Shown here piece after piece: positions 44,667 to 59,769 of a stretch of DNA of 64,000 bases; position 1 is the first letter of the stretch; the number at the start of each line of letters is the position of its first letter. Position numbers and translations under genes: made by a program. The notes below the pieces were generated by a model, which saw only the letters and a program-made list of their open reading frames with translations, did no database searches and was not told the origin of the DNA. Where the stretch lies: contig JAPPBT010000078.1 in assembly GCA_026702745.1 (NCBI GenBank), forward strand, positions 1 to 64,000, in the 5' to 3' direction. The DNA is from Gemmatimonadota bacterium. Lineage in GTDB: Bacteria > JAAXHH01.

Positions 44667-46028
44667 ATGCATTACCTCATAGTACTCGTGATTGCGTTCG
44701 CGCTATCCATGATGGGATGCGAAGGCAAGACAGGCCCCTCCGGCCCCACCGGTCCTCAGGGCGCGGCTGGTCCGCAGGGTGTGGCCGGCCCTGCCGGCAA
44801 TCAAGGCGCGGTTGGTCCGCAAGGTCCCGAAGGTCCGCAAGGCCCCGAAGGTCCGCAAGGCCCCAAGGGCGACCAGGGTGATCCGGGTCCCGCCGGTCCC
44901 GACGGTCCTCAAGGCCCCGCTGGCCCGCAAGGTCCCGCCGGTCCCCAGGGACCCCAGGGCGAGGGCATCGACGCAGATCAGATCATCGGTAGCGGCGTAC
45001 TGTCCGATATTCATCACATCAAGTTGATGCAGGATGGCAACGACAAGAAGATCGCCGTGTTTGACGCGCCGGATTACGCACTCAGGGAAGGTACGGAAAA
45101 CACCATGGATCTGATCATGGCCGTGGGCGATATGACCATGATCGCCGCAAAGGCCGCCAGCCAGAGCGGTATGGCACTGCCCATCACGTTCGACTGGGCT
45201 TCCGATTCCGACGCCGTTACGGTCGACGGTGGCGCCATCGACGCCGTGTCTTCGACCGGCAAGGCGACGGTAACGGTCACCGCGGTGGGACGAGGTGTGG
45301 AAATCGACCTGACCATCAAAGTGCTCGACCTGATCAAGCGGATCGAGTTTGCATCAGGCCAGGCGACCTCTTATGTGCTGCCGGTCGGCGGTTCGATCGA
45401 TTTGATGACACCTGTCGCCTACAATGAGGAAGAAGAAGGCGAAGTTATCGACGGCGCCGAAGCGCTGATTGACTGGGTAAGTTCCGATACCGACGTTGTC
45501 AGCGTGGACGGGAACACGATCACGGCGGAAGGCAGAGGCAAAGCCGAGATCACGGCCCAGGGTCAGGGGGTTACATCCAAGGCCAAGGTCATGGTCACCG
45601 TAGCCGGCGGTACCGGGGTCATCAGGTACGTGATGAATCCATACCCGTCCAGTACTGCCGACCGTACCAGGACCCTGACGCTTGCCGTCGAAGACGATCC
45701 AGCCACTACCGACGTGAATGAAACGGTGGCGCGATCAGTAGACCCCGTCACGAATATCGTGCTTCGAATCCAGGTACTCGAGGTCGGCCCTGACGGCAGG
45801 ACTTCGAACAATGACGACTCCCTGACCGCGACCGTCCGAAGCCAGAACCCGGACGTGATCACCATTCCCGAAAATCAGAACCCGGCCGTGATAGCTAATG
45901 CTTTAGGGACAATTACCATCCCAACCGCCGAGGAGTGGATCGTAGGTCATGGTACAGCGTATCTGGTGGTTTCGATTCCCGGGGCAGAGGACTTACCCCT
46001 GGCTCCGATCTTCATCAACGCGCCCTGA
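44667..46028 (+). CDS. Collagen-like lipoprotein with bacterial Ig-like domains
   Basis: A 453-residue surface or periplasmic lipoprotein. The signal peptide ends in a lipobox LSMMGC (lipidated Cys18). From about residue 23 to 100 the sequence is an unbroken series of roughly 26 Gly-X-Y triplets ([11 protein letters not shown] and similar), predicting a collagen triple helix. Then come two Big2-like Ig domains (about 125-215 and 225-312, each with a VTVDG or VSVDG strand, then GKATVTVTA or GKAEITAQG), and a C-terminal beta-rich domain. Trimeric, outward-projecting architecture is inferred. A GGGAG site precedes ATG 44667. It is monocistronic. Confidence 0.88.
44733..44966. repeat. 9-bp based collagen repeat
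   Basis: In-frame repeats of GGTCCGCAA-like 9-mers coding Gly-Pro-Gln, Gly-Pro-Glu and Gly-Pro-Ala, with longer duplicated blocks (GGTCCGCAAGGCCCCGAA). This array is the source of the Gly-X-Y domain. Confidence 0.85.
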
Positions 46029-46348
46029 ACCGTCGTTACTGGTCGCATAACCGTTCACCAGGTTCGGGATAATCCGGGCCCGTAGCCAGGGTGCAGATAG
46101 AGTCCTGGAAGTACCGCGAAAGTTCTGGGGTGTCGCCTGGGATTATCCAAAAATGGGGTTAGGATCCTCCTCCGAGGATCAGCCTTCGCGGAAGCCTCAT
46201 GCATTTGTATCAGGCATCCTGGAACACCTTCCCGTTCGCCCTGAGTAGGAGCTACGGCCACTGAAAGGGGCGAGCGGCCTGATATTCATAGCCCCGGTGC
46301 GGGTACGTGCCGGGGCTATGTCATTGAAGGATGTTCTATATTCCGCGC
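46029..46348. other. 320-bp intergenic region between convergent genes
   Basis: No gene found. Its main content is a strong hairpin at 46287-46320 described separately, and a smaller GATCCTC/GAGGATC dyad near 46165. Confidence 0.6.
46287..46320. terminator. Strong hairpin between convergent genes
   Basis: CATAGCCCCGG (46287-46297) and CCGGGGCTATG (46310-46320) form a perfect 11-bp stem around a 12-nt loop, between the lipoprotein gene and the convergent lpxH. Neither side has a clear T-run, so it may be a weak or factor-assisted bidirectional terminator. Confidence 0.5.
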
Positions 46349-47089
46349 TTATTCCCCATGGGACCCGTACCGTTCCAGGGTCATCACTCCGTCGCACAGC
46401 AGGCCATAGGTGTCGTGCTGCAGCCAGTCGCCCAGGTTGATGTAGACCTTGTCCTCCTTATGTTGCAGTGTCGGACAGTGGATGTGCCCGAAGACCACCG
46501 CATCATAACCCTGGTCGAGTAGTGAAAAGGCCAGGTCCCGGTAAGCTTCCCGCGGGTCCCACGCCGTGGGTGTGCCGTGGCGCCTGCTCAGCCGTGATGC
46601 CAGGCGGCCGATCCTGAAGCCGCAGTCCGGGTGAATCAGTTGAAACAGGCGGATGCTGACGGCGCTGTGCATGATCTTCGAGAGCAGGCGGTATCCAAGA
46701 TCCCTGGATATGAGCCCGTGACCGTGGGCGATATAGATCTTCCGGCCGTGATGGGTAACGGTCAGTGGTCCTTCGGCCGTTTCCACCCCGACCTGCTCGT
46801 CCAGGAAGGTCCCCAGCCAGAAGTCGTGGTTTCCGGCGAGGTAGGTGACCGGGACGCCGCTCTCGACCAGCGAGCTCAGCGCGTGCAGCACCGTGTAGTG
46901 CTGGCGCGGTACTACGGTGCGATATTCGAACCAGAAATCGAATAGATCGCCCACGATATACAGATGGCCGGCCCGGGCCCTGAGACTTCGCAGGAAGTCA
47001 AGCAAACGGCCTTTTCTCTCTTCCTCCGCCCCGTAATCGTCGATTCCGAAGTGGGCGTCGGAAATGAAGTAGACGGGTTTAATACTCAT
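46349..47089 (-). CDS. UDP-2,3-diacylglucosamine diphosphatase-like (LpxH) metallophosphatase
   Basis: A 246-residue calcineurin-like phosphoesterase. Metal-binding motifs are FISDAHFG, GDLFDFWF, AGNHDFW, IAHGHG and VFGHIHCPT, in LpxH order. The length and the DFWFEYR segment fit UDP-2,3-diacylglucosamine pyrophosphohydrolase, the fourth step of lipid A synthesis at the inner membrane surface; a relative with another substrate is possible. ATG 47089 starts at the first motif. The open frame continues to 47953 but that part lies over the divergent BlaI gene and is not coding. Confidence 0.85.
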   Translation of the reverse strand: MSIKPVYFISDAHFGIDDYGAEEERKGRLLDFLRSLRARAGHLYIVGDLFDFWFEYRTVVPRQHYTVLHALSSLVESGVPVTYLAGNHDFWLGTFLDEQVGVETAEGPLTVTHHGRKIYIAHGHGLISRDLGYRLLSKIMHSAVSIRLFQLIHPDCGFRIGRLASRLSRRHGTPTAWDPREAYRDLAFSLLDQGYDAVVFGHIHCPTLQHKEDKVYINLGDWLQHDTYGLLCDGVMTLERYGSHGE

Positions 47090-47229
47090 ATCAGGCACCA
47101 GGACCGAAACAGGCCGGCATACGCCGGTTTCCCGGGGATCCAGGGGGACAACTTTGGATTGACATTTCGCCGCGTGCGCGTTAATTAAAATACAATAGGA
47201 CATATATTTAACTAACGAAATCTTTGGTC

Positions 47230-47255
47230 GCAATCGCAGTGCGCAATCGCAGTGC
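47230..47255. repeat. 13-bp exact direct repeat upstream of the BlaI-type gene
   Basis: GCAATCGCAGTGC occurs twice back to back, 53 bp before the regulator's ATG, in the divergent gap with lpxH. It could be a regulator site or a slippage duplication. Confidence 0.6.
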
Positions 47256-47308
47256 GCGAACACTCCGGCCCGGACGCGTCGGTGTGGTGAACGCGGAGAA
47301 GGAAACGG

Positions 47309-47779
47309 ATGCCGAGAAAGAAGCTGTCGTCGTTGACGGACCTGGAAATCGATATCATGAACGTCGTCTGGCGGTTGGGACGGGCAACGGTGCGCCAGAT
47401 CGTCGATTCGCTTCGAAACCAGCGTCCCCTGGCGTATACCACCGTGCAGACGGTACTGTCCATACTCACGCAGAAGGGTGTCGTCCGGTATACCCGCGAA
47501 GGCCGGGCCTATGTCTACACCTCCATCCTGAAACCCGAGGGCGTGCGCCGGGAAACCGTCCGTGCCGTCGTGGACAAGCTGTTCGCCGGATCTCCGCAGT
47601 CCCTGGTGCTGCACCTGATCGAATCGGACGCCTTGACCGCGGAAGAAGCCGAAAGTCTGCGCAAACTGCTGGACCGGATGGCCTCGGAGTCGTCGGACGC
47701 CTCGAATCCGGACGCGTCGGACGCGTCGGACGCGTCGAATTCGGAGGCCTCGGAGGCCTCGGAGGCCTCGGATGATTGA
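47309..47779 (+). CDS. BlaI/MecI/CopY-family transcriptional repressor
   Basis: A 156-residue winged-helix repressor. LTDLEIDIMNVVWRLGRATVRQIVDSL and TTVQTVLSILTQKGVV form the DNA-binding domain (residues 8-75), followed by the dimerisation helices. The last 30 residues are an unusual acidic repeat (DASDASDASNSEASEASEAS) coded by 9-bp DNA repeats at 47681-47770. In the classic pair BlaI is cleaved after BlaR1 (M56) senses a signal; here the M56 gene follows with an 8-bp overlap. The signal is not predictable; no beta-lactamase is present. Confidence 0.9.
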   Translation: MPRKKLSSLTDLEIDIMNVVWRLGRATVRQIVDSLRNQRPLAYTTVQTVLSILTQKGVVRYTREGRAYVYTSILKPEGVRRETVRAVVDKLFAGSPQSLVLHLIESDALTAEEAESLRKLLDRMASESSDASNPDASDASDASNSEASEASEASDD

Positions 47780-49658
47780 TTCCGTCCAAGCCATAGGCCT
47801 CTTCGAACGGTTCGGCCGGCAGGTCGTGGACCTGTTGTGGCTTCCGAGCCTTGAAGCGTTGCTTCTGGGCGTCCTGGTCTGGGTGCTGCTGTTCGTGAAC
47901 CCGGGATGCCCGGCCAGGATACGGCACTTCCTCTGGTTGCTGGTTCTGGCCAAACCGCTGCTGACCCTCGTGCTGCCCTGGCATGGACCGTTCGAAATCC
48001 CGTGGGCGTCGATGGCAAGCCATGGCGTGCCCGCCGCGGGCGGTCACAACGCACTGGCATCCGGAGTCTTCGCCATCGCGGGTCTGGTCTGGATGGGTTT
48101 CGCCGGTTACGGCCTCTACCGCATCGGTTCATCGGTCATCACCATGACCCGAAGAAGGCGGCGGTCCGTCCCGGTCGCCGTCCCCCGTGTAAGCGCGCTA
48201 TTCGACCGGTGCCTGGCCGAATCGGGCTTGAAACGCAACGTGGCCCTGCGGGTCTCCGACGAGTTCGAGGTGCCTGCCCTGATCGCCGCCGGGCGCCCCA
48301 CCGTCGTGATCCCCTCCTGGTGCATTCTGGAGCTTTCCAGCGTGGAACTCAGGCAGGTCCTGCTTCATGAACTGGCCCATTATGCCCGCCGGGACCACCT
48401 TACGGTCTTCCTGGTCCAGTTCAGCAGGTTCTTCTTCTTCTTTCACCCGGCGGTATGGTACGCCGCGTACCGGGCCGGGATCGAGGCAGAACGGGCCTGC
48501 GACGCGGACGTCGTTCGTGTTTCCATGCAGCCGGAAAGCTATGCGTCCACCCTGTTGAAGGTAGCCACGGGCAGGATCCGGACACACTGGCAGGCTGCCC
48601 TCGAAATGGCGCGGTCGGCCTCCATGGCCGCCCAGCGTATCCGGGACGTGCTTGGTTCGACGGTGAACGGGAAGGACCGCGCCTTCTTCCCGTTGCTGGC
48701 CGCCGGTATCTGCTCGCTGATCGCGGTCATGCCCCTGTTGCGGCCAGCGGTCGAGGCCCCCGGAGACGCGCCCGTATCGTCGCGGACGAGCATGCCCGGC
48801 GAACCGGCGGTTCCCGTCCGGATCGGTGCGGCGCCCGTTACGCAGCATCCCGAAGCACCGGATCATGAGACGCAGGTCGCGCGGGTGGCGGACGCGCCCC
48901 TGCCGCCAGTCCGGGTAGTCGATCGTCGGATCATGGTAGACGGCCGGCCCGTGCCGCGCGGGTCCATGGCCGCCATGATGGTAAAACCGTCCGTCCATCC
49001 CCGAGACGTAATACTCGAATCCACGGAGCGCGAACGGATCAACCCCGCCGTGCTCGGACAGACCGCCGCCCCGGTCATCCCGGCTCAGACCCTGTCGACG
49101 GGTAACCAGGCCAGGCAGGGACGTATCGAGGTGCAGGGCGTGGGCCGGACCGGCAACGAGCTGTTCGATCCCGGCACGGTCTCCCTGAGCGCCGGTTATT
49201 TCATTACACCGACCCACCAGTTCGGCGGCGTGTTTTCCATTCGGCGGCCCAACGATACGGAAGCCTTTGACGATTCCCGGCGGCCTTCCGGAGCACCGTA
49301 CGGCGGTTCCCTCATACGAGCCCGGAGACTGGCCGGTTTCGGGACCTCGTCGGCGCAGAAGACGGCGCTTGAATCCTCAGAGGAAGTGCAGGCCGAACGG
49401 ATCACCCGGATCGGCGCATTCTACCGGTACAATCTGCTCGTTCCGGGCGATTCCTTCACGCCTTTCTTCGGATGGGGCGCGGGTCTGGAGATCAGGCCGC
49501 AGCACCGGAACATGACTATGATCGACGCCGGGGTCGGACTGCGTTACTTCTGGGAACGGCATGTCGCCGTCGTCGTACAGGCATCCTACCGGAAGGAACT
49601 GGATGTCATCTCTCGTCCTTACCCGGAGATGACGCTGGGCTTTTCCGCAATCTTCTAG
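47772..49658 (+). CDS. M56 (BlaR1-like) membrane peptidase fused to an outer-membrane-barrel-like domain
   Basis: A 628-residue protein. Three to four N-terminal membrane helices surround an M56 metalloprotease domain: LLHELAHYARRDH (His199, Glu200, His203) and the third ligand in EAERACDAD (Glu240). A further helix lies at about 306-325 (FFPLLAAGICSLIAVMPLL). After a Pro/Val-rich linker the C-terminal 160 residues alternate aromatic/hydrophobic with polar residues (VSLSAGYFITP, RIGAFYRYNLLVP, FTPFFGWGAGLEI, VGLRYFWERHVAVVV), ending EMTLGFSAIF with a terminal Phe, as in outer-membrane beta-barrels. BlaR1 normally ends in a penicillin-binding sensor, absent here. It is coupled to the BlaI-type repressor before it. 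Confidence 0.82.
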   Translation: MIDSVQAIGLFERFGRQVVDLLWLPSLEALLLGVLVWVLLFVNPGCPARIRHFLWLLVLAKPLLTLVLPWHGPFEIPWASMASHGVPAAGGHNALASGVFAIAGLVWMGFAGYGLYRIGSSVITMTRRRRRSVPVAVPRVSALFDRCLAESGLKRNVALRVSDEFEVPALIAAGRPTVVIPSWCILELSSVELRQVLLHELAHYARRDHLTVFLVQFSRFFFFFHPAVWYAAYRAGIEAERACDADVVRVSMQPESYASTLLKVATGRIRTHWQAALEMARSASMAAQRIRDVLGSTVNGKDRAFFPLLAAGICSLIAVMPLLRPAVEAPGDAPVSSRTSMPGEPAVPVRIGAAPVTQHPEAPDHETQVARVADAPLPPVRVVDRRIMVDGRPVPRGSMAAMMVKPSVHPRDVILESTERERINPAVLGQTAAPVIPAQTLSTGNQARQGRIEVQGVGRTGNELFDPGTVSLSAGYFITPTHQFGGVFSIRRPNDTEAFDDSRRPSGAPYGGSLIRARRLAGFGTSSAQKTALESSEEVQAERITRIGAFYRYNLLVPGDSFTPFFGWGAGLEIRPQHRNMTMIDAGVGLRYFWERHVAVVVQASYRKELDVISRPYPEMTLGFSAIF

Positions 49659-49698
49659 CTTCTTCCTTCGTCCACATGGCCATCTGAATCTCTAGCAA

Positions 49699-51150
49699 AT
49701 GGATCATCATCCCCGAAGAGCGGCCCCGGCGCTCATCATCGCCGGCGGCGCGGGCGTGCGCCTTCAGCCGGTCACCGGCCCGGTGCCCAAACCCCTGTTG
49801 AAGTTATGCGGCGTACCGTTGATCAAGCGGATCATATTGACGGCGGCGCGGGCCGGGGTATCACGCTTCGTTATCGTAACGGGGTACGAGGCGGACCGGT
49901 TTCACGAGGTCCTTTCCAACGATCCCGGCCTGGACGCTCTCGAAATCGAGTGGGTGCATAACGAACGGTGGCATCTGCCCAACGGGGTTTCCGCCCTGGC
50001 CGCCCGTACCCGAATGACGGAACCGTTCGTACTGCTCATGGCCGATCACCTCTTCGAGCAACAGACCCTGGAGCGTCTGCTCGAGGAACCGGTGGCCGAT
50101 GGGGAGTGCCTGCTCGCCGTCGACCGGAAAATCGACCGCGTGTACGACGTGGACGACGCGACCAAGGTCGAAGTGCGAGGGGATAAAGTGGTGCGCATCG
50201 ACAAGGAACTGAAGGCTTTCAACGCGGTGGACACCGGCATGTTCCTTTGTACGCCGGCCCTGTTCAACGCCCTCGATACCGTGAACGGACCGGAGGGTTG
50301 CGCGTTGAGCGACGGCGTCCGGTCGCTTGCCGCGGAAGGGCGGATGCGCGCCTTCGACGTGGGCGATGGTTACTGGCAGGACGTGGATACGCCCGAGATG
50401 CTGGCTTATGGCGAAAGGACGCTGGTGGGACGCCTCGTAAAACCCACCGACGGCTGGGTGTCCCGGCATATCAACCGGCCGATTTCGACCCGGCTCAGCC
50501 GGTGGCTGGTCCGGACGCCGGTCACCCCGAACATGGTGACCCTGATCACGTTTCTGACCGGCCTGGCCGGGGCGTGGTTCGTGCTGGACAGCACCTACTG
50601 GTCGGTGCTGCTGGGCGCATTGCTGTTCCAGGCTTCGTCCATCCTCGACGGCTGCGACGGGGAAGTGGCGGTGCTTACCTTTCGCGAATCGAAATACGGC
50701 TCGTGGCTCGACACGATCACGGACAACCTGACCTACCTGGCGTTCTTCGCGGCCGTGGTCTGGGCCTACGCGGGCGGCTCCGGAGATTCGGTCGTCCGGT
50801 CCCTCGGCCTGGGATCCGTCGTCGTAGTGGCCGCGTCGATACTCGTGATGTATTACTATCTGCTGCAGACCGGGGGGAGCGGCAGCCTGGTCCGGTTCAA
50901 CCGGGCCTTCGAAGAGCACGCCGTCGGGCGGCGGCGACACCTCGCCGCAAGGCTGCTCAACCTGTTCAGGATGATGGCCAAAAGAGATTTCTTTACCATG
51001 CTGCTGCTGGGTTTCGCCGCGCTCGACCTGCTGAACTGGATGTTCTGGACCGTTACGGCCGGCGGCCTGGCCATGGGACTGGCCATATTCATTTCAACGG
51101 GGAGGCTGCTGTCGCGGGATCGGGCGGTGGCCGGGGAAATGCGCTCATGA
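49699..51150 (+). CDS. Bifunctional nucleotidyltransferase / CDP-alcohol phosphotransferase (IPCT-DIPPS-like)
   Basis: A 483-residue fusion. Residues 8-240 are a sugar-phosphate-type nucleotidyltransferase: LIIAGGAGVRLQPVTGPVPKPLL is the NTP-binding signature, with LMADH and the VDVD-type metal Asp. Residues 260-480 are a CDP-alcohol phosphotransferase with about six helices and the motif DGCDGEVAV (317-325), Gly334, Asp338, Asp342; the usual Arg of the motif is Val325. This architecture is known for CTP:inositol-1-phosphate cytidylyltransferase / di-inositol-phosphate phosphate synthase. It would activate an alcohol phosphate with CTP and transfer it to an acceptor. The alcohol (inositol or other) is inferred from family. 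The next gene overlaps its stop by ATGA. Confidence 0.85.
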   Translation: MDHHPRRAAPALIIAGGAGVRLQPVTGPVPKPLLKLCGVPLIKRIILTAARAGVSRFVIVTGYEADRFHEVLSNDPGLDALEIEWVHNERWHLPNGVSALAARTRMTEPFVLLMADHLFEQQTLERLLEEPVADGECLLAVDRKIDRVYDVDDATKVEVRGDKVVRIDKELKAFNAVDTGMFLCTPALFNALDTVNGPEGCALSDGVRSLAAEGRMRAFDVGDGYWQDVDTPEMLAYGERTLVGRLVKPTDGWVSRHINRPISTRLSRWLVRTPVTPNMVTLITFLTGLAGAWFVLDSTYWSVLLGALLFQASSILDGCDGEVAVLTFRESKYGSWLDTITDNLTYLAFFAAVVWAYAGGSGDSVVRSLGLGSVVVVAASILVMYYYLLQTGGSGSLVRFNRAFEEHAVGRRRHLAARLLNLFRMMAKRDFFTMLLLGFAALDLLNWMFWTVTAGGLAMGLAIFISTGRLLSRDRAVAGEMRS

Positions 51151-51932
51151 GCGGGTTGCGGGACCGTGCAAGGGGACTCTTCGCCCTCCGGCTCAGGAAG
51201 GATTTCAACTTCCGCCGGTCCCAGGAAACGGTCCCCGCGTTACGCTGGCTGAAGCCGCGTAAGGACGAGCGTATTCTCGATATCGGTTGCGGAGAAGGGA
51301 CCTACGATTACCGGATCGCCTTGCGAGGCGCCAGGGTGTTCGGTTTCGACCTGGACCGGAAACAGTTGCGCCGTGCCCAGGCCTACCACAAGACGCCCTT
51401 CACGGGATTCGTCTGCGCCCATGCGGACGCGTTTCCCCTTCGTTCCGAGCAGTTCGACACGGTCATGAGCCTGTGTGTCTTCGAGCACCTGCCGGACGAC
51501 CGGCAGACGCTACGTGAGATGTGGCGCGTGTTGCGGCCCGGGGGTCGCATCCTGCTGACGCTGGACAGCCTGAGTCTCGAGGAGATCGGCGAGTCATGGC
51601 GCGACGAGCACCGGAAGCGTCACAGCGTCCTGCAGTTCTACACCCACTCGTCGATCGGCTCGTTGCTGGAAGCCTGTGGATTCAGACTGACAAGACACCG
51701 GTACCTGCTCCGTTCCCGGCTGGACCTGGCGTTGATCCGGTTGAGTTACGCCACGGAGCGCATGCACGCGGTCCCGGCAGCGGCGATCCGGTTGGGACTA
51801 GTTTCGGCCGGCAGGGCGGTATCCGCGGTAATCAACCTGTTCACCGGGAACCAGCGGGGATGGACCCTGTTGATCGAAGCGGACAGAGTGCCCCCGGACT
51901 CGAGCCCGAACCCGGCCCCGGACCCGAATTAG
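51147..51932 (+). CDS. Class I SAM-dependent methyltransferase
   Basis: A 261-residue methyltransferase. ILDIGCGEGTYDYRIA is motif I, VFGFDLDRKQLRRA motif II, FDTVMSLCVFEHLPD motif IV and MWRVLRPGGRILLT the post-motif of the UbiE/Methyltransf_11 group. The start at 51147 overlaps the previous stop (ATGA), so it belongs to the phosphotransferase operon; the open frame upstream to 50247 is a shadow. It could methylate the headgroup or a lipid made by the neighbours. The C-terminus is Pro-rich (PPDSSPNPAPDPN). Confidence 0.85.
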   Translation: MSGLRDRARGLFALRLRKDFNFRRSQETVPALRWLKPRKDERILDIGCGEGTYDYRIALRGARVFGFDLDRKQLRRAQAYHKTPFTGFVCAHADAFPLRSEQFDTVMSLCVFEHLPDDRQTLREMWRVLRPGGRILLTLDSLSLEEIGESWRDEHRKRHSVLQFYTHSSIGSLLEACGFRLTRHRYLLRSRLDLALIRLSYATERMHAVPAAAIRLGLVSAGRAVSAVINLFTGNQRGWTLLIEADRVPPDSSPNPAPDPN

Positions 51933-51945
51933 CGAATCTCCCATC

Positions 51946-53472
51946 ATGACGCATACCCAGGAGCAACCGGCTTTGGTCCGGTCCCGATCCGACGCATCGA
52001 CGATCGCCCGGGGCGCCGCCGTCAATTTCATCGGAACGGTAGCGCGGCTGATCAAGTCCGTGTCGTTCATCGTCCTTACGCGGCTGTTCGGCGCTGAGAT
52101 CTTCGGGCTGTACATGCTCGGATGGACCATCGTGGATCTCGTATCCAAGGTCGGCCAGTTCTCGCTGGACAAGGGGCTGGTCAATTTCATCCCGCGCCTG
52201 CGAGAGGATGGGGAGACGGAGGCCATCCACCGGACCATCGCGCAGGCCCTGGGCGTGGGGCTCCTGCTGAGCGCGGGAATCGGCTCCGCGCTCTATGCCG
52301 CTGCGGCTCCACTGGCGGATGGCCTGCTCGACAAGCCCCGGCTCACCGGCATGCTGCGGCTGCTGGCGGTCGGCCTGCCGCTCATCGCCCTGACCCAGAT
52401 CATACTGGGCGTCACCCGGGCGCACAAGGTCATGAAACACGACGCCATGGTCCGGGGCGCCGTCGAGCCCCTGGTGCTGTTCGGGGCGGCCTGTGTCCTG
52501 TTCTACGCGGGCTGGCGTACCTACGGCATCGCCGCGGCCCACCTGGCCGCGCTGGCCTGCGGACTGCTATACGCCGTTTACGTGTTCACCCGGTTCTATT
52601 CCTGGCGGTCCTGTCTCGTCCACCTGCGGGCACTGCGGGTCGTCACTCCGCTGACCCGCTTCTCGCTGCCGGTCATGGGCTATGAGCTGGTCTACATGTT
52701 CATGATCCGGCTGGACGTGCTCATGGTCGGCTACTTTCTGCCGGCCGCACAGGTGGGCGTTTACGTGATCGCGGTCGAAATCGCCCTGGCGACCAAGAAG
52801 GTCCGCCAGTGGTTCGACCCCGTTTTCAGTCCCATCGTCGCCGAACTGAGTCACCGCAACGACCTGCGGCGGCTGGAGCTCAATCTGCAGCTGGTCACCC
52901 GGTGGGTGCTGACCATCGGCCTGGCGTTCCTCTGCGTGGTGTCGCTGGTCGGTAATGAACTGCTTGGACTTTTCGGCCCCGAATTCGTCGCGGGATTCAT
53001 GGCGATGGTCGTCCTGGCCATGAGCCAGGTCGTCTACGCCGCCATGGGATCGGGCGATACGGTGCTCATCATGTCGGGCCGGCCCTGGCTGAATCTCGTG
53101 AATACGGTCGTGGTCGTGGTGGTCAATTTCGTCCTGAACCTGTGGTTGATACCGGCCCTGGGCATTCTTGGCGCGGCCCTGGGAACGTTGGCGGCCTTCG
53201 GACTGTTGACGCTGATCCGCCTGGCCGAAGTGTATCATCTGTTCCGGATCCTTCCACTGTCCTGGCGCATTCTGAAGCCATGCGCCGCGGCAGTGCCCGC
53301 CTTCGCGTGCGCATACGTGGCGGGCGTCTACGCACCGGACATACCGTGGCTGCGCATGGCCGCGCTGCCCGCGATCTTCCTGGGCTGCTACGTGGGCGTA
53401 CTGGGTCTCCTGGGGTTGGAAGAGGAGGACCGGATCGCCCTCCGGCGCTTGCGCGGACGGAGCGGACCATGA
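51946..53472 (+). CDS. Oligosaccharide/lipid flippase, MATE/MVF (Wzx) family
   Basis: A 508-residue membrane protein with about 12 to 14 helices. The N-terminal GAAVNFIGTVARLIKSVSFIVLTRLFG and LFGAEIFGLYMLGW pattern and the central PVMGYELVYMFMIRLDVLMVGYFLP are typical of polysaccharide-biosynthesis flippases that move lipid-linked saccharides across the inner membrane. It starts 14 bp after the methyltransferase stop and overlaps the second phosphotransferase gene by four bases. In this operon the cargo may be a lipid carrying the CDP-alcohol-derived headgroup; that is inference. Confidence 0.85.
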   Translation: MTHTQEQPALVRSRSDASTIARGAAVNFIGTVARLIKSVSFIVLTRLFGAEIFGLYMLGWTIVDLVSKVGQFSLDKGLVNFIPRLREDGETEAIHRTIAQALGVGLLLSAGIGSALYAAAAPLADGLLDKPRLTGMLRLLAVGLPLIALTQIILGVTRAHKVMKHDAMVRGAVEPLVLFGAACVLFYAGWRTYGIAAAHLAALACGLLYAVYVFTRFYSWRSCLVHLRALRVVTPLTRFSLPVMGYELVYMFMIRLDVLMVGYFLPAAQVGVYVIAVEIALATKKVRQWFDPVFSPIVAELSHRNDLRRLELNLQLVTRWVLTIGLAFLCVVSLVGNELLGLFGPEFVAGFMAMVVLAMSQVVYAAMGSGDTVLIMSGRPWLNLVNTVVVVVVNFVLNLWLIPALGILGAALGTLAAFGLLTLIRLAEVYHLFRILPLSWRILKPCAAAVPAFACAYVAGVYAPDIPWLRMAALPAIFLGCYVGVLGLLGLEEEDRIALRRLRGRSGP

Positions 53473-54803
53473 AATTCAGCGTAGTCCTGTTCGCGGATAC
53501 CGAAGTCTCAGCGGCCGGTGCCGGCCGGTCGATTTACGGTATTTCACTGCTGGAGCGGCACCTCCGGGTCTTCGCTTCACTGGGGGCCCGGCGGGTCACG
53601 GTTGTCGGACCATCACCCGGGCCGGGATCGGACGTCAGGGGATCGGACGTCAGGGGATCGGACGTCAGGGGATCGGACGTCAGGGGATCGAACGTCCGGG
53701 TCGACGGATTCGACGATCGCTGGTACCGGGAACTGGGGGCCGTCGAATGCGTATGTTCGGACGAAAATCCGGCCCGCTGGCTGCCCGGACAGGACGAAAC
53801 GGCCCTGGTCATGGACGCCGGCCACCTGTACGACCATCGGGTTCTACGGGCCATGATCGACGACGGCCGTAACCGGAGCGCCGTGGACTCGTCGGTCAGG
53901 GAATCCTGCAGGCTGCTGGTGGCGGACGCGGACCTCCTCACAGAACTTACGGCGTCCTGGACCGGCTCCGAATCGCTGTGGTCCGCGCTGGACTCGGTGC
54001 AGGAATCGACCTGCCCGGTCTTCGACCTGCGCGAACTGGATCCCTATATCGTGGATCTGCGCCGAAGCCTGCCCCCCTGGTGGCTGGTCGTCGATTCGGA
54101 CCTGAAGATCCGCCGGGCGGAGGCCCTGTTGATCGACGCCGCACAGAAGGGTACGCTGGATTTTCCCGCGGAGTTTATCCATCCGCCCCTGGAAAACCTG
54201 CTTACGAAGTGGATTTCGGCCAGTACCGTGACGCCGAACCAGGTGACCACCCTTTCAATACTGCTCGCCTTTCTGACTACCGGTCTTCTGGCCGTGGGGC
54301 AGATGGGTACGGAGTACCTGGCCGCGGGACTGGTGATCGCTTTCATCGTCGGGGTGCTGGACGGTGTCGACGGCAAATTGGCCCGTGTGACAGTGCGATG
54401 CACCCGGTTCGGGGACCGTTTCGAACACATCCTGGACGTGGTCTGGGAGCTGACCTGGTACTGGGCCCTTGGGTGGATGCTCAGCGGCGGCGGCGAGGCG
54501 GCCGGTCCCTTTGTGCTCGCCACGGTGATCACGTTCTTTTATCTGCTTGACAAGGCGGCTACGGGGATGTTCAAGTCCAGACAGGGTATCGAACTGTTTG
54601 ACTACGCGCCCGTGGACCGCTTCTTTCGCCGTATCGGCGCCCGGCGCAATACGAATGTCCTGGTGTTGCTCGCGGGTTTGGCGGTCGGCATGCTGGAGGA
54701 AGCGTTCACATGCGTGGCGATCTGGACGGTGATCACGGCGGCGTTCCATTGGACGCGGGCGATCTGGCTGCTGTCGCAACCGTCGCCTGCCGATGGGTCT
54801 TGA
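53469..54803 (+). CDS. CDP-alcohol phosphotransferase with degenerate N-terminal nucleotidyltransferase domain
   Basis: A 444-residue relative of the fusion at 49699. The N-terminal 240 residues keep the order of a nucleotidyltransferase fold (SIYGISLLERHLRVFASLGARR resembles PLIKRIILTAARAG) but lack the GGxGxRL and KPLL signatures, so catalysis there is improbable. The C-terminal phosphotransferase has DGVDGKLAR (298-306), Gly315, then Glu319 where Asp is usual, then Asp323. Residues about 53-77 are five GSDVR repeats. It starts at ATG 53469, overlapping the flippase stop (ATGA). Two non-identical phosphotransferases in one operon suggest two transfer steps or a regulatory pair. Confidence 0.78.
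   Translation: MKFSVVLFADTEVSAAGAGRSIYGISLLERHLRVFASLGARRVTVVGPSPGPGSDVRGSDVRGSDVRGSDVRGSNVRVDGFDDRWYRELGAVECVCSDENPARWLPGQDETALVMDAGHLYDHRVLRAMIDDGRNRSAVDSSVRESCRLLVADADLLTELTASWTGSESLWSALDSVQESTCPVFDLRELDPYIVDLRRSLPPWWLVVDSDLKIRRAEALLIDAAQKGTLDFPAEFIHPPLENLLTKWISASTVTPNQVTTLSILLAFLTTGLLAVGQMGTEYLAAGLVIAFIVGVLDGVDGKLARVTVRCTRFGDRFEHILDVVWELTWYWALGWMLSGGGEAAGPFVLATVITFFYLLDKAATGMFKSRQGIELFDYAPVDRFFRRIGARRNTNVLVLLAGLAVGMLEEAFTCVAIWTVITAAFHWTRAIWLLSQPSPADGS
53624..53698. repeat. 15-bp tandem repeat, five copies
   Basis: GGGATCGGACGTCAG repeats exactly four times, with a fifth diverged copy. It encodes the GSDVR block of the degenerate nucleotidyltransferase domain. Near identity implies recent expansion. 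Confidence 0.95.
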
Positions 54804-54850
54804 TACCGCCTGTCGACAGGACGGGTACCACCGGTCTAGAGAACGAGAAG

Positions 54851-54872
54851 AACCGGGTGAGCTCGCCCGGTT
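54851..54872. terminator. Hairpin after the second phosphotransferase gene
   Basis: AACCGGGTGAGCTCGCCCGGTT is a palindrome with one wobble, 48 bp after the stop, followed only by TGTCG. It is likely a pause or weak terminator. The downstream gap to 55019 contains TATACT (54939-54944) but no convincing -35. Confidence 0.45.
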
Positions 54873-55019
54873 TGTCGCTGCCGAGCATGGACCGGCCTTT
54901 GCTATTAGTTGGATCAATAGGCGGTCGGGTGCGTCTAATATACTTGAGAAAGCGTGCATTTCCGATTACGGTGGGTCGATTTGAACGGTGAGAATGTTCC
55001 TGTGTTTAGCGGAGGTGAC

Positions 55020-56465
55020 GTGATTCGTATTCTGGTCTACATCCTGGCGGCATCGCTGATCTCGGGGCCTGTATTGGCGCAGGGACCGGGCGGACTCGTT
55101 CAGGCCGACCGGGCTGACCAGGCTGACGACCAGGTTGATGACCAGGCTGTCCAGGCTGTCCAGGCTGTCCAGGCTGTCCAGGCTGTCCGGATGACGCTGG
55201 ATCAATGCGTGGACCGGGCGTTGCGGGTCAGTCCGGACATCGAACAGGCGGTCCTTACCGTCGAGGGTCTTGAAGCCAGGTTGAGCGAAGCGAGATTCGC
55301 GGGCATCACACCCCGGTTGGAGTGGACCAATATCTTCGGTCCCGCGCCGGGTATAGAAGGCGATACGGAAGAGATCGAGACCATCCGGAGTGACCTGGGC
55401 GACCTAGGCGTTTTCTCACGCACGCAGATCGAGCTGGTCCAGCCGCTGTACACCTTCGGGAAGCTCAGTAATGCGAAGAAGGCGGCCGGGTACGGTCTCG
55501 AAGCGGGGGAGGCGGCCGTGGAATCCCGGAAATTCGACGTGGCGTTCCAGGTGAGGAAGTTATTCTACGGTCTCGTACTGGCCAGGGAACTCAGTGACAT
55601 CATCCTGGATAGCGTAGAAAAGGTACAGGAGGCCCGGGACCGCGTAAACGAGATGATCGAGGAAGACTCGGAAGACGTCGGCCAGAACGACCTGTTGAAA
55701 ATCGATGTCTTTGAATTCGAAGTGCAGCAGAGCCGGGCGCGGGCCGAGAAGTCGATCGAACTGGGGAGGGCGGCGCTGAAGGCCTTGCTCGAAATAGATC
55801 GGTCCATCGATTTCGATATCGTCCATACGGCCGCGGATACCGAAACGGCGGACCTCGATGAACTGGACGTTTATGTAGAAAGGGCGAAGAACCGGCGGTA
55901 CGACATCCGGCAACTGAGGGCCGGAGTGCTGGCCCGCCGGGCGCTGCTGAAGGTGGCCAGGAGCGACTTCTACCCCCAGATTGCCCTGGCGGGATCACTT
56001 CAGTGGGGTATCGCGCCGCACAGGCCGGAGCTCGACAATCCTTTTCTCCGGGACGAGTTCAATTTCCTTCGCGGCGGCGCCGTGATTACCTTGCGCCAGA
56101 ACTTCAATTTCGGCCTGACACGCGCCAAATATATTGCCCGGAAAGTGGAACTGGAAGCGCTGGAGAGCAAGGAATCCCAGGCGATGAGCGCGGTCGCGCT
56201 GCAGGTGGAGCAGACCTACCGCGACGTGATCGAGGCCCGTACCAACGTGGTCAACAGCGACCGGGCGCTCCGCTCCGCCAGGGCATGGCTGACATCGGCT
56301 CAACTGGGTTTCGACGTTACCGGAGACAGTTCGGAACTGCTGGACGCTTTCACCGCGCATGCGAAGATGCAACATGCGCACAGGCAGTCGCTGTACCAGT
56401 ACCGGGTTTCGCTGGCCGAACTCGATCATGTGACCGGCAACGAGGTTTACAATGGACGGCGTTAA
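55020..56465 (+). CDS. TolC-family outer-membrane channel
   Basis: An outer-membrane efflux protein of about 481 residues. GTG 55020 after GGAGGT is chosen because it begins a signal peptide directly (IRILVYILAASLISGPVLA). The frame is open upstream to 54954. After a repeat-containing linker (QAVQAVQAV) two TolC repeats follow: MTLDQCVDRALRVSPDI opens the first, LVQPLYTFGKLSNA and long coiled-coil helices follow, and the second has QNFNFGLTRAKY and SSELLDAFTAH. There is no adaptor or pump gene nearby, unusual for TolC; it lies in a run of envelope genes instead. Confidence 0.9.
   Translation: MIRILVYILAASLISGPVLAQGPGGLVQADRADQADDQVDDQAVQAVQAVQAVQAVRMTLDQCVDRALRVSPDIEQAVLTVEGLEARLSEARFAGITPRLEWTNIFGPAPGIEGDTEEIETIRSDLGDLGVFSRTQIELVQPLYTFGKLSNAKKAAGYGLEAGEAAVESRKFDVAFQVRKLFYGLVLARELSDIILDSVEKVQEARDRVNEMIEEDSEDVGQNDLLKIDVFEFEVQQSRARAEKSIELGRAALKALLEIDRSIDFDIVHTAADTETADLDELDVYVERAKNRRYDIRQLRAGVLARRALLKVARSDFYPQIALAGSLQWGIAPHRPELDNPFLRDEFNFLRGGAVITLRQNFNFGLTRAKYIARKVELEALESKESQAMSAVALQVEQTYRDVIEARTNVVNSDRALRSARAWLTSAQLGFDVTGDSSELLDAFTAHAKMQHAHRQSLYQYRVSLAELDHVTGNEVYNGRR
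55143..55187. repeat. 9-bp tandem repeat, five copies
   Basis: CCAGGCTGT repeats exactly five times, giving Gln-Ala-Val five times between signal peptide and mature TolC-like domain. Confidence 0.95.
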
Positions 56466-56504
56466 AGTACAGAACGGCTATGAAGCACGGAACGGAGGAC
56501 GGGC

Positions 56505-57485
56505 ATGAACCATAGACGTGCGGGGACGGGCATGGAGCGTGGTTTACCGACGGACAGGGCGCGGGGAACGTTGACGGTCATGGAGGGTGGAATTCCAGCG
56601 GGCAAAGCGCGGGGCTGGCCGGCCGGCCGGACCTTCGGTTTGCTGGCGGGCGCCGTCCTGCTGATCTGCGCCGCGTTCATCGATCCACCTTCAGTCTATC
56701 GCACGGACACGGAAACACAGGTGCTGTCGCCCCGGGAGTTCGGGATGGTCGGGGCATCCTGGACGGCCTGGACGGCCTGGCCGCGGACCGCCGCGTTCGT
56801 TCCGGGCGTCGCGTGGGCGGACCATGCGGACTATGCGTTCCCTCCCCAGCGGGGCGATGACCAAGGAAAGTCCATCACGATCGAAGCCTTCGACGATTCG
56901 GCCCCGGGCGGCTTCCCCCTGACCTGGAAAGCCTGGCGGGGCAACGACGACCAGGCCCGCAGTCTGTACACGATCCGGGAGGAGAAGGGCAACCGGTATC
57001 TCCACGCGGCCGACGACGGCACCTCCATCATCATTCTCAAGCCAGTCAGCGAATGGGATGCAAATAAATACCCGGTGCTGTCCTGGCGGTGGAGGGCGAC
57101 GGTCCTGCCCGAAGGCGGCGATGAACGCATCCGTACCAAAAACGACAGTTCCGTGGCCGTATACGTGGTCCTGGACCAGAACTTCATCGGCGTGCCCAAG
57201 ACCCTGAAATATGTCTGGAGCACCACCGCGCCGGTCGGCACCCACTACCGCCGCGAAGGCATCGGCCGCCCCCACGTGATCGTGCTCGAGAGCGGGAAGG
57301 AGAAGCTCGGACAGTGGGTCGAGGAGTCGGTCGACGTGCATGCGGACTATGTCCGTATCTTTGGGAAGAAGCCGCCCCGGAAAGCCGTAGGGATCGGCAT
57401 TCTGACGGATGGCAACGCGACGGGATCGGACTCCAGGGGAGATTACGACGATTTCGTGGTTCATCGACGGGACACCGGATCCTGA
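56505..57485 (+). CDS. DUF3047 family protein
   Basis: A protein of up to 326 residues with a DUF3047 domain in the C-terminal 210 residues: FDDSAPGGFPLTWKAWRG, LSWRWRATVLPEGGDER, KNDSSVAVYVVLD, TLKYVWSTTAP, GIGILTDGNATGS. DUF3047 has no known function. The N-terminus is low in complexity with a hydrophobic stretch at about 44-61 (FGLLAGAVLLICAAFI), a likely signal or anchor, so it acts outside the cytoplasm. ATG 56580 is a possible shorter start. It sits 39 bp after TolC and is followed by a repeat-filled gap. Confidence 0.8.
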   Translation: MNHRRAGTGMERGLPTDRARGTLTVMEGGIPAGKARGWPAGRTFGLLAGAVLLICAAFIDPPSVYRTDTETQVLSPREFGMVGASWTAWTAWPRTAAFVPGVAWADHADYAFPPQRGDDQGKSITIEAFDDSAPGGFPLTWKAWRGNDDQARSLYTIREEKGNRYLHAADDGTSIIILKPVSEWDANKYPVLSWRWRATVLPEGGDERIRTKNDSSVAVYVVLDQNFIGVPKTLKYVWSTTAPVGTHYRREGIGRPHVIVLESGKEKLGQWVEESVDVHADYVRIFGKKPPRKAVGIGILTDGNATGSDSRGDYDDFVVHRRDTGS

Positions 57486-57488
57486 CCC

Positions 57489-57560
57489 GGCCAATCCGGC
57501 CAATCCGGGTGATCGGGCCAGACCGGGTGATCGGGCCAGACCGGGTGATCGAGACGGTTC
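57489..57560. repeat. 9-bp and 18-bp tandem repeats between genes
   Basis: GGCCAATCC twice, then GGGTGATCGGGCCAGACC twice exactly (57507-57542) and a third partial copy, directly after the DUF3047 stop. Confidence 0.9.
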
Positions 57561-57636
57561 GGGCGATCCCGTGGGGTCGTGTGACCCTGCCAATTCGTGC
57601 AATCGGTCCTGCAGCATGAAAGGATGGAGGTGGGGA

Positions 57637-58236
57637 ATGCAAGTGAATCGCCGTGCGGTCCGCCGCCTGGGACGCCTTGCCGCCTGGGCTGCGGTGTCGC
57701 TGCTGGCTTTTGGGAGTTACGCGCAGGAATACTCGCCCATCGAGACGCTGAAACAGCGGGACGCCGCGCTACGCGCCCTGGACGGGGCCGCCACCGAAGC
57801 GGCAATGGACAGCCTGGTGCGCCATGCCGTCGTCTCAGGGTTCGATTTCGAGCGGCACAGCCGCATTTCACTCGGCAGACACTGGCGGGAGCGGACGGAC
57901 GCCGAACGGGAGGAGTTCGTTTCGGTCCTGCGAAGGTGGACCGAAAGCCGGGCCCTGGACAAGCTGCGCAAGCGGTCGGACAGGACGACCTACGACGGGG
58001 AAGAGACCCGGGGCAGCCGCTCGCTGGTGAGAACGACGGTATGGTACAAGGGCACCAAAACCCTCGTCGACTACAAGATGGAGCTGAAAGCGGGGGAATG
58101 GCTCATCTATGACATGGTCATCGACGGGGCGAGCGTTGCGCTGGCCAACCGGGACGCATTCTACAAGAAAATCAGCAGGACATCCTACGACGAACTGCTC
58201 AACACTCTCCGTGCGAAAACCCTTGAAATCGAATAG
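57637..58236 (+). CDS. MlaC/Ttg2D-like periplasmic phospholipid-binding protein
   Basis: A 199-residue exported protein. ATG 57637 with GGAGG six bases upstream is chosen over 57616. Signal peptide residues 1-29 end in FGSYA. The mature part is the MlaC/ABC-toluene-tolerance fold: helical N-terminal half, then FEVSLGR-like (RISLGRHW), a central strand pair (RTTVWYKGTKTLVDYKMEL) and the conserved WLIYDMVIDGASV with NRDAFYKKI. MlaC carries phospholipids between membranes. No MlaFED transporter is in the window, so it may work with other local genes (TolC, DUF3047). Confidence 0.8.
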   Translation: MQVNRRAVRRLGRLAAWAAVSLLAFGSYAQEYSPIETLKQRDAALRALDGAATEAAMDSLVRHAVVSGFDFERHSRISLGRHWRERTDAEREEFVSVLRRWTESRALDKLRKRSDRTTYDGEETRGSRSLVRTTVWYKGTKTLVDYKMELKAGEWLIYDMVIDGASVALANRDAFYKKISRTSYDELLNTLRAKTLEIE

Positions 58237-58316
58237 CGAAACGAGTATACTCTCAAGCCTGTACTGTATACTTGAATTGAGTAATGTAACGATGTCCTAA
58301 GTTTTTAGGAGACGGA

Positions 58317-59759
58317 ATGGCGGCGACCGCCTTTAATCGATGTATCTTTTTCCTCGTCGACGGCGCACGGGAAGACGTCATGCGGAAGCTGATTGAGGCC
58401 GGCGAACTTCCGTCCCTGCGGCGGTACGTCCTCGACCGGGGAGATTACCGGAAAGCGGTGACCTCGTTCCCGTCCACGACCGGTCCGGCCCATGTGCCCT
58501 TTTTGACCGGCTGTACGCCCGGTTCGTGCAATCTTCCCGGCATCCGCTGGTTCGACCGGTCCCAGCCCGAGGGGCTCACCCATTTCCGGCAAGCGCGCAG
58601 TTACGTGGGACCGGGTGGACTGTATATCGACAGTGATCTGAAGGACGAGATCCACACCATCTTCGAATACTACGAGCGCCCGGCGGGCGTTTTCAGCCTG
58701 GTAAACAAGGGGTTGGGCATATTCGAAAACCGGACGTTGCTGACCAGGAACTGGTACTTGTACTATGCCCATTTATCCGGCAGGTGGAAAGTCATGGACG
58801 ACGCGGCCTGGAGGTACATCGACCGGGCCGTCGACCGGGGGGTAGATTTCCTGTCGGTCGTATTCCCCGCGGTGGACGAATACTCTCATTACACCGATCC
58901 CTTTTCGGATACCACGTTGGAGGCCTATCGGGCATTCGACCGGGGATTCGGCAGGCTGGCGGAGCGGCTTCAGCGGCTGAACAGGCTGGACGACACGCTG
59001 CTCGTGGTATCCAGCGATCATGGTCTGACGTCCACCCACACGCATTTCGAGTTATGGTCCTTTCTCGACGAAATAGGATTCAATACGCTGTACTATCCCC
59101 GGATCCTGCGCAGTGGATGCGACGCGGCCATGATGGTTTCGGGCAACGGCATGGCGCACATCTACCTTAAAAAGGGCGAGACCTGGGAAGAAAGGCCATC
59201 ATACGATGAGATCCGCGCACTGGGGGAAACCGATCCCGTCGAGGCCCTGCTCGAACAGGAGGCGGTAGACCTGGTGGCGGCGACCCGGGGTGACTCGGTC
59301 ATCGTCTGCGGGCGCCGGGGGATCAGTGAAATCAGGGAGATGCCCGGCGGCATTGCGTACCGGGTGCTCGAGGGCCAGGATCCTTTCGGTTACGGCGGCA
59401 TGCCGGCCGAAGCGTCCGATGAGCAGATGCTCGCCGCCACCTACGACACGGACTATCCAGACGCGCCTTACCAGTTGCTACGCGTCTTCGGTTCGCCCCG
59501 GTCCGGAGACCTGATCGTCAGCGCCCGGATCGGCTACGATCTGAGACACCGCCATGAACATCCTGAGCACAAGTCGACCCACGGTTCATTGCATCGCGAC
59601 CATATGCACGTACCTCTGATGATGAACACGGACATTGCAGCGGAATGCGTCCGCACCGTGGACGTGTTCCCCGCCATGCTGAACTTGACGGGACGTACCG
59701 TCAAAGGGACCATAGACGGAAGAGATTCCGTCACCGCGGCAACGCGGGCGGTGGCGTAG
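58317..59759 (+). CDS. Alkaline-phosphatase-fold phosphodiesterase/phosphatase
   Basis: A 480-residue member of the type I phosphodiesterase/nucleotide pyrophosphatase family. FFLVDGAREDV supplies the first metal Asp, SFPSTTGPAH the Thr nucleophile, VFPAVDEYSH and VSSDHGLTST the second metal sites, and LHRDHMHVP the last His. No signal peptide or membrane helix is seen. In this cluster it could trim or hydrolyse a phosphodiester headgroup. TTTAGGAGA precedes ATG 58317. The radical SAM gene follows 10 bp after its stop. Confidence 0.85.
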   Translation: MAATAFNRCIFFLVDGAREDVMRKLIEAGELPSLRRYVLDRGDYRKAVTSFPSTTGPAHVPFLTGCTPGSCNLPGIRWFDRSQPEGLTHFRQARSYVGPGGLYIDSDLKDEIHTIFEYYERPAGVFSLVNKGLGIFENRTLLTRNWYLYYAHLSGRWKVMDDAAWRYIDRAVDRGVDFLSVVFPAVDEYSHYTDPFSDTTLEAYRAFDRGFGRLAERLQRLNRLDDTLLVVSSDHGLTSTHTHFELWSFLDEIGFNTLYYPRILRSGCDAAMMVSGNGMAHIYLKKGETWEERPSYDEIRALGETDPVEALLEQEAVDLVAATRGDSVIVCGRRGISEIREMPGGIAYRVLEGQDPFGYGGMPAEASDEQMLAATYDTDYPDAPYQLLRVFGSPRSGDLIVSARIGYDLRHRHEHPEHKSTHGSLHRDHMHVPLMMNTDIAAECVRTVDVFPAMLNLTGRTVKGTIDGRDSVTAATRAVA

Positions 59760-59769
59760 GAGCATATTC

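Follow-up and report, generated by a model that had tools for sequence, protein, structure and literature searches.

A conserved gene set encoding two CDP-alcohol phosphotransferases and one live cytidylyltransferase domain, a candidate route to an inositol-phosphate-bearing envelope lipid in a Gemmatimonadota bacterium

The window analyzed here is a stretch of 64,000 nucleotides on one contig (C78; GenBank JAPPBT010000078.1) of a 3.88-Mb Gemmatimonadota genome (G000), which is 96% complete. Four co-directional open reading frames, P0001 to P0004, encode two CDP-alcohol phosphotransferases and, between them, a methyltransferase and a flippase (Table 1). Their three junctions are ATGA, a 13-bp gap, and ATGA. 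The frames, coordinates, and junctions are as described in an earlier reading of this DNA, made from the letters alone (the sequence-only reading). Its central claim was that one phosphotransferase carries a live nucleotidyltransferase (NT) domain and the other a dead one, and Pfam matches, profile-profile comparison, and phylogenetic trees agree on this point.

Table 1. Features of the four-gene locus, its flanks, and related loci (window positions, except where a locus, L, is named)
Feature	Position	Strand	Basis
P0001: IPCT-type cytidylyltransferase (~aa 10-245) and CAPT1-type CDP-alcohol phosphotransferase (~aa 252-473)	49699-51150	+	Pfam, NCBIfam, PDB 4mnd, NT tree
P0001 cytidylyltransferase loop GGAGVRLQPVTGPVPKPLL with Arg21 and Lys31	49744-49800	+	aligns with T. 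maritima IPCT R16/K26
P0001 CDP-alcohol phosphotransferase signature DGCDGEVAVLTFRESKYGSWLDTITD; Val325 (50671-50673) instead of the usual Arg	50647-50724	+	alignment
P0002: SAM-dependent methyltransferase (Methyltransf_11 type)	51147-51932	+	Pfam
P0003: MOP-superfamily flippase (Polysacc_synt / Polysacc_synt_3)	51946-53472	+	Pfam
P0004: CAPT2-type CDP-alcohol phosphotransferase with degenerate nucleotidyltransferase-like N-terminal domain	53469-54803	+	
P0004 degenerate nucleotidyltransferase-like domain	53469-54158	+	profile-profile match; median dN/dS 0.29
P0004 signature DGVDGKLARVTVRCTRFGDRFEHILD; Glu319 codon 54423-54425, then His320	54360-54437	+	alignment
BlaI-type repressor and BlaR1/M56-type sensor protease	47309-49658	+	M56 by Pfam; BlaI from sequence and BlaR1-like neighbour
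TolC-type outer-membrane protein (likely start 55020), DUF3047, MlaC/HpnM-like, phosphodiesterase, radical SAM	54954-60870	+	Pfam, NCBIfam, synteny
Gfo/Idh-like and aminotransferase pairs	L053 9823-12626 and L078 15820-18444		

P0001 scores above the Pfam cut-offs for NTP_transf_3, NTP_transferase, and CDP-OH_P_transf. Its closest full-length structural homologue is the IPCT-DIPPS enzyme of PDB 4mnd (E 1.4e-52), and its top NCBIfam model is IPCT-DIPPS NF041135, at 241.9 bits against a model cut-off of 580. The residues R21, K31, and D116 are conserved and match R16, K26, and D112 of the inositol-1-phosphate cytidylyltransferase (IPCT) of T. maritima, in which R16 and K26 are active-site residues (PMC12275187). 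Together with the Pfam matches, they bear out the live domain. Its ratio of nonsynonymous to synonymous substitution rates (dN/dS) is 0.18 within the genus. The class I signature, D1xxD2GxxAR...GxxxD3xxxD4, is imperfect in both phosphotransferases, with Val for Arg in P0001 and Glu for D3 in P0004. All four Asp residues are present in P0001, but the alignment shows AR changed to AV, a departure that the sequence-only reading had overlooked. Members of the genus have Val at this position, other members of the order have Lys, and MIPS-linked bifunctional IPCTs have Arg. Because an Arg-to-Ala change lowers activity in yeast Cpt1 (R118A) but not in C. albicans Cho1 (R133A), the P0001 site may still work.

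P0004 passes the Pfam cut-off for CDP-OH_P_transf only, and its N-terminal 230 residues have no Pfam match. Compared profile to profile, P0004-type N-termini match the P0001/IPCT NT domain throughout their length (probability 97.4%, P 1e-11); an unrelated methyltransferase profile, used as a control, scored 0.2%. The GxGxR...K loop is missing, and the second protein thus keeps the outline of the domain without its signatures, as had been proposed. Within the genus, dN/dS of the degenerate domain reaches at most 0.42 around the median given in Table 1, and that of the membrane domain is 0.14. The degenerate domain is under purifying selection, which rules out a decaying relic and suggests that it may be kept as a structural or docking part. 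Five tandem 15-bp units encoding GSDVR repeats (window 53624-53700) add 20 residues to this domain; the insertion is present in G000 and missing from the eight aligned congeners.

In P0004, Glu319 takes the place of the third signature Asp without variation across the genus, and the signature Arg is retained. The corresponding 'EH' motif also occurs in homologues of several other lineages, including live-cytidylyltransferase enzymes, and yeast Cpt1 has 'FDH' at the matching site (PMC8727905). The sequence-only reading had correctly noted Glu where Asp is normal. Decay of the site is ruled out by its invariance and by the live bifunctional homologues that share it. The recurrence of 'EH' instead marks a phosphotransferase subfamily, a point missed before; we call this P0004-type subfamily, with its 'EHxxD' mark, CAPT2.

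In the NT-domain tree, P0001 groups with IPCTs, most of them encoded by genes adjoining MIPS (84/90, moderate), and this group is separated from the CpgD-, PntC-, and LicC-like NTs (94/84); several nodes of the trees have only moderate support. The NGxS, MxDH, and DxD[TD] motifs are common to the P0001 NT domain and the MIPS-linked IPCTs. MIPS is encoded in G000 and in all 11 congeners. The live domain of P0001 is most likely an IPCT, as judged from its sequence relationships. Of the two substrates suggested earlier, inositol-1-phosphate accords with the NT tree, the motifs, and the linkage of CAPT2 to MIPS; glycerol-1-phosphate found no support in this analysis. The phosphotransferase domain of P0001 groups with proteins of the genomes G083, G372, and G020 (CAPT1), apart from DIPPS, in two trees (86/80 and 86/65). 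P0004 falls in the CAPT2 clade (96/99), which holds both live and dead NT forms; in the phylum of G042, every member of the clade has EHxxD.

CAPT1-type and CAPT2-type proteins are encoded near each other in G083 and G372, both with degenerate NT domains, and IPCT-type NTs are encoded elsewhere in these genomes. The CAPT1-type gene of G020 adjoins MIPS. In G068, two CAPT2s, a distant CAPT1-like protein, and DUF3047 lie together, a pairing less secure than those of G083 and G372. DUF3047 as a general partner of these phosphotransferases was rejected, since strong CAPT2 was found in only G068 among five DUF3047 genomes outside the order. An IPCT-type domain in G372 (L081 2316-3773) appears to be joined to a region that matches DNA-3-methyladenine glycosylase 2; the fusion may be real or an assembly artefact. 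CAPT1, CAPT2, and their pairing on a shared donor appear to be undescribed.

A profile search of 384 genomes located CAPT2 in 15 genomes of its own order and in only 7 of 368 outside it, counting G042, G068, and G083, whose sequences helped to build the profile and which are thus hits by construction. The weak match in G014 is its P0001-type protein. MIPS is present in all seven CAPT2 genomes outside the order, compared with 150/368 overall (P 0.0017, or ~0.005 if two genomes of one family are counted once, relatedness being only roughly corrected). In the phylum of G042, 10/17 genomes encode CAPT2. A stand-alone IPCT directly precedes a dead-domain CAPT2 in six of these ten, the other four carry CAPT2 as a fusion with a live IPCT (one truncated at a contig end), and MIPS lies directly upstream in six. 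This arrangement is the strongest indication that CDP-inositol is the CAPT2 donor and that a dead domain accompanies an IPCT supplied elsewhere. Since CAPT2 in this phylum has either a fused live IPCT or a dead domain behind a separate one, P0004 would use the CDP-inositol made by P0001.

P0004 is encoded in all 11 congeneric genomes (G001-G011; 80-92% identity). The four-gene order is kept in 10/10 congeners with intact contigs (77-95% identity), which is more than chance; in the eleventh, a contig end interrupts the locus. Beyond the genus, the set is partly kept in the family and order. The methyltransferase is missing from the locus in G012 (family), contigs break within P0004 in G013 (family), and G015 (order) retains the set, with P0001 cut by a contig end. 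In G014 (order), P0001 and the flippase are followed by glycosyltransferases, DUF3047, and a different CDP-alcohol phosphotransferase in place of P0004, and the methyltransferase is not at the locus. The genes named in the sequence-only reading are thus not split within the genus; in more distant relatives, the locus can do without the methyltransferase (G012, G014), and CAPT2 is missing in G014. Most surveyed genomes are metagenome-assembled, and at the distant loci genes were called as mechanical open reading frames, library-checked only where a Pfam or NCBIfam match is named.

The proposed operon is present, but the conserved string is longer than four genes. In congeners and relatives, BlaI and the M56 protease lie directly upstream, and TolC, DUF3047, the MlaC/HpnM-like protein, the phosphodiesterase, and radical SAM lie downstream. 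The BlaI and BlaR1/M56 pair might regulate the four-gene set. An inverted repeat separates P0004 from TolC, so the string from TolC to radical SAM may form a separate transcript. Additional genes occur between P0004 and TolC in G012, G013, and G015, including a radical SAM gene and a membrane protein, which matches PMT_2 in G015. Rfam gave zero matches across window positions 46000-61000, and promoter and terminator scans gave no signal exceeding that of shuffled sequence. A collagen-like GxP-repeat protein, kept within the genus, is encoded upstream (window 44667-46028). Several short tandem repeats near gene ends or starts (window 47681-47772, 55101-55188, and 57494-57551) are apparently common in G000. 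A protein search returned eight relatives from metagenome-assembled genomes labelled Candidatus Latescibacterota or Gemmatimonadetes, and the host appears to belong to an uncultured, largely sponge-associated marine lineage. In sponge Latescibacterota, myo-inositol synthesis has been predicted (PMC12993501).

The neighbours of CAPT2 in other genomes bear on its acceptor. CAPT2 lies beside MlaA, an LPG-synthase-TM protein, and MMPL in G083, and beside MMPL and LPG-synthase-TM in G372. A cluster in G239 contains serine palmitoyltransferase (620 bits, cut-off 500), LptF, and a CAPT2 homologue that adjoins a lipid kinase. By gene context, this homologue holds a position matching that of the CDP-alcohol-type gene CC_1159 in the Caulobacter phosphosphingolipid cluster; CC_1159, with CC_1160, is genetically required for phosphosphingolipids (PMC11324152). 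Since the best NT match in G239 is CpgD-like, CDP-glycerate may be the donor there. The CAPT2 family thus spans several donors, and the lipid or envelope context recurs. This context (MlaA, MMPL, sphingolipid genes) favours a lipid acceptor; for P0004 the acceptor would most likely be a lipid, the weakest step of the interpretation. The unusual phospho-headgroup product proposed earlier is likely, given the trees and the homologue contexts, and we infer that export of a lipid is likelier than that of a soluble solute.

Other arrangements were seen at these distant loci. In G068 (L051 7449-11530), two CAPT2-type proteins adjoin a phosphoenolpyruvate (PEP) mutase-cytidylyltransferase (PepM-PntC) fusion, which suggests a phosphonolipid or phosphonoglycan route. 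Two CAPT2 copies in this genome (L050 1756-4175) have Val or Ser at the fourth signature Asp; they may be inactive or regulatory because this Asp is lost. A Gfo/Idh-like oxidoreductase and a class-III-type aminotransferase, which together could make an amino-inositol, form a pair in G083, where lipid-transport genes are close by, and in G239, where MIPS, MMPL, and an HpnM-like gene are.

Several known systems resemble parts of the locus. P0001 shares with IPCT-DIPPS of Archaeoglobus and Thermococcales the domain order, the NT catalytic residues, and overall homology. However, its phosphotransferase domain is in the separate CAPT1 clade, has Val in place of the signature Arg, and has a lengthened loop towards the C-terminus, and its neighbours are a flippase and a second transferase, MIPS not being adjacent. 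P0004 resembles AF2299 of Archaeoglobus (PDB 4o6m), which also has a cytidylyltransferase-like N-terminal domain on a CDP-alcohol phosphotransferase and for which CDP-glycerol was reported as donor (PMC4634129). In the phosphotransferase tree, AF2299 (a partial row) falls with DIPPS, whereas P0004 falls in CAPT2. P0004 also differs in carrying Glu-His where the third Asp is usual, and among its relatives are enzymes with a live IPCT encoded behind MIPS.

CDP-inositol-dependent synthesis of inositol phospholipids was reportedly described in Rhodothermus marinus by Jorge et al. in 2015. An alternative inositol lipid cluster was predicted in Bacteroidetes (PMC9246714). By description, this route shares with the present proposal the activation of the head group as CDP-inositol and its transfer by a CDP-alcohol phosphotransferase; clustered MIPS and, in some genomes, a nearby LPG-synthase-type gene are also common to both. 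It differs in that here one NT would serve two phosphotransferases, and no HAD phosphatase was seen. The Caulobacter cluster, with CC_1152/CpgD as NT and CC_1159 as CDP-alcohol phosphotransferase, uses CDP-glycerate for a ceramide-based lipid (PMC11324152, PMC12275187). An NT, a CDP-alcohol phosphotransferase, and outer-membrane lipid transport are common to both systems, whereas the window operon has no ceramide genes.

Taken together, it is somewhat probable that an envelope lipid bearing inositol phosphate, perhaps a glycolipid, is made and exported by the four genes and their conserved neighbours. MIPS, whose gene lies elsewhere in the genome, would supply inositol-1-phosphate, and the N-terminal domain of P0001, by homology, motifs, and tree position, would convert it with CTP to CDP-inositol. 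From this shared donor, the CAPT1 domain of P0001 and the CAPT2 domain of P0004, which would no longer make a donor itself, could each transfer phosphoinositol to an acceptor. The product might then be modified by the methyltransferase, flipped by the flippase, and carried outward by the MlaC-like and TolC-like proteins. We tentatively suggest that one live cytidylyltransferase feeding two phosphotransferases might build a two-step head group (e.g. a tandem phosphoinositol) on an undescribed outer-membrane lipid.

Several points weigh against this interpretation. No assayed or characterized member of CAPT1 or CAPT2 was found in the literature, and MIPS is unlinked to the operon in G000. Val325 could reduce the activity of CAPT1. 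Some CAPT2 homologues lie beside phosphonate (G068) or probably phosphoglycerate (G239) donors, so that membership of CAPT2 cannot by itself fix inositol. The minimal MIPS-IPCT-CAPT2 unit includes no lipid-specific gene and thus leaves room for a soluble diester, and the lipid acceptor is suggested by genomic context. An AlphaFold2 model of P0004, computed with nine close homologues, was poor (predicted local distance difference test 37.7, predicted template modelling score 0.30) and was not used.

The same minimal units, along with the 4mnd homology and the top NCBIfam model of P0001 (far under its cut-off), would fit a soluble osmolyte, in which P0001, and perhaps P0004, makes di-inositol phosphate or another inositol phosphodiester solute as in hyperthermophiles, with the flippase and transport genes unrelated. 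This is unlikely, as both CAPT1 and CAPT2 lie outside the DIPPS/AF2299 group, the linkage to flippase, TolC, and MlaC is conserved, and relatives of CAPT2 adjoin sphingolipid and outer-membrane lipid-transport genes. Slightly less likely still is the decoration of a glycan, in which a polyprenyl- or lipid-linked saccharide receives phosphoinositol from one or both transferases before the MOP flippase takes it across the membrane. Besides the flippase itself, order relatives with a PMT_2-like glycosyltransferase, an FkbM methyltransferase, or glycosyltransferases in the string would fit, as would G339, where CAPT2 is followed by a glycosyltransferase and a MOP flippase; however, the four-gene set of the window has no glycosyltransferase, and no Wzy/Wzz-type gene was noticed within the stretch examined. 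Activation of another phospho-alcohol by P0001, such as phosphoglycerate, phosphocholine, or a phosphonate, is improbable given its NT tree position and motifs and the co-occurrence and linkage of CAPT2 with MIPS, even though related NTs differ in substrate and CAPT2 relatives lie beside PepM-PntC (G068) or with a CpgD-like NT (G239).

Inositol lipids are regarded as uncommon among bacteria. For the CDP-inositol lipid route, one biochemical study and one genomic prediction were found in the literature. Each step of the proposed inositol lipid pathway has precedents, and the pairing itself appears to be undescribed. The locus defines two phosphotransferase subfamilies, CAPT1 and CAPT2, for which no characterized member was found, and provides a traceable series from live to dead cytidylyltransferase domains inside one family. 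It also offers a concrete prediction, open to test, about the envelope lipids of this uncultured lineage, which is largely sponge-associated.

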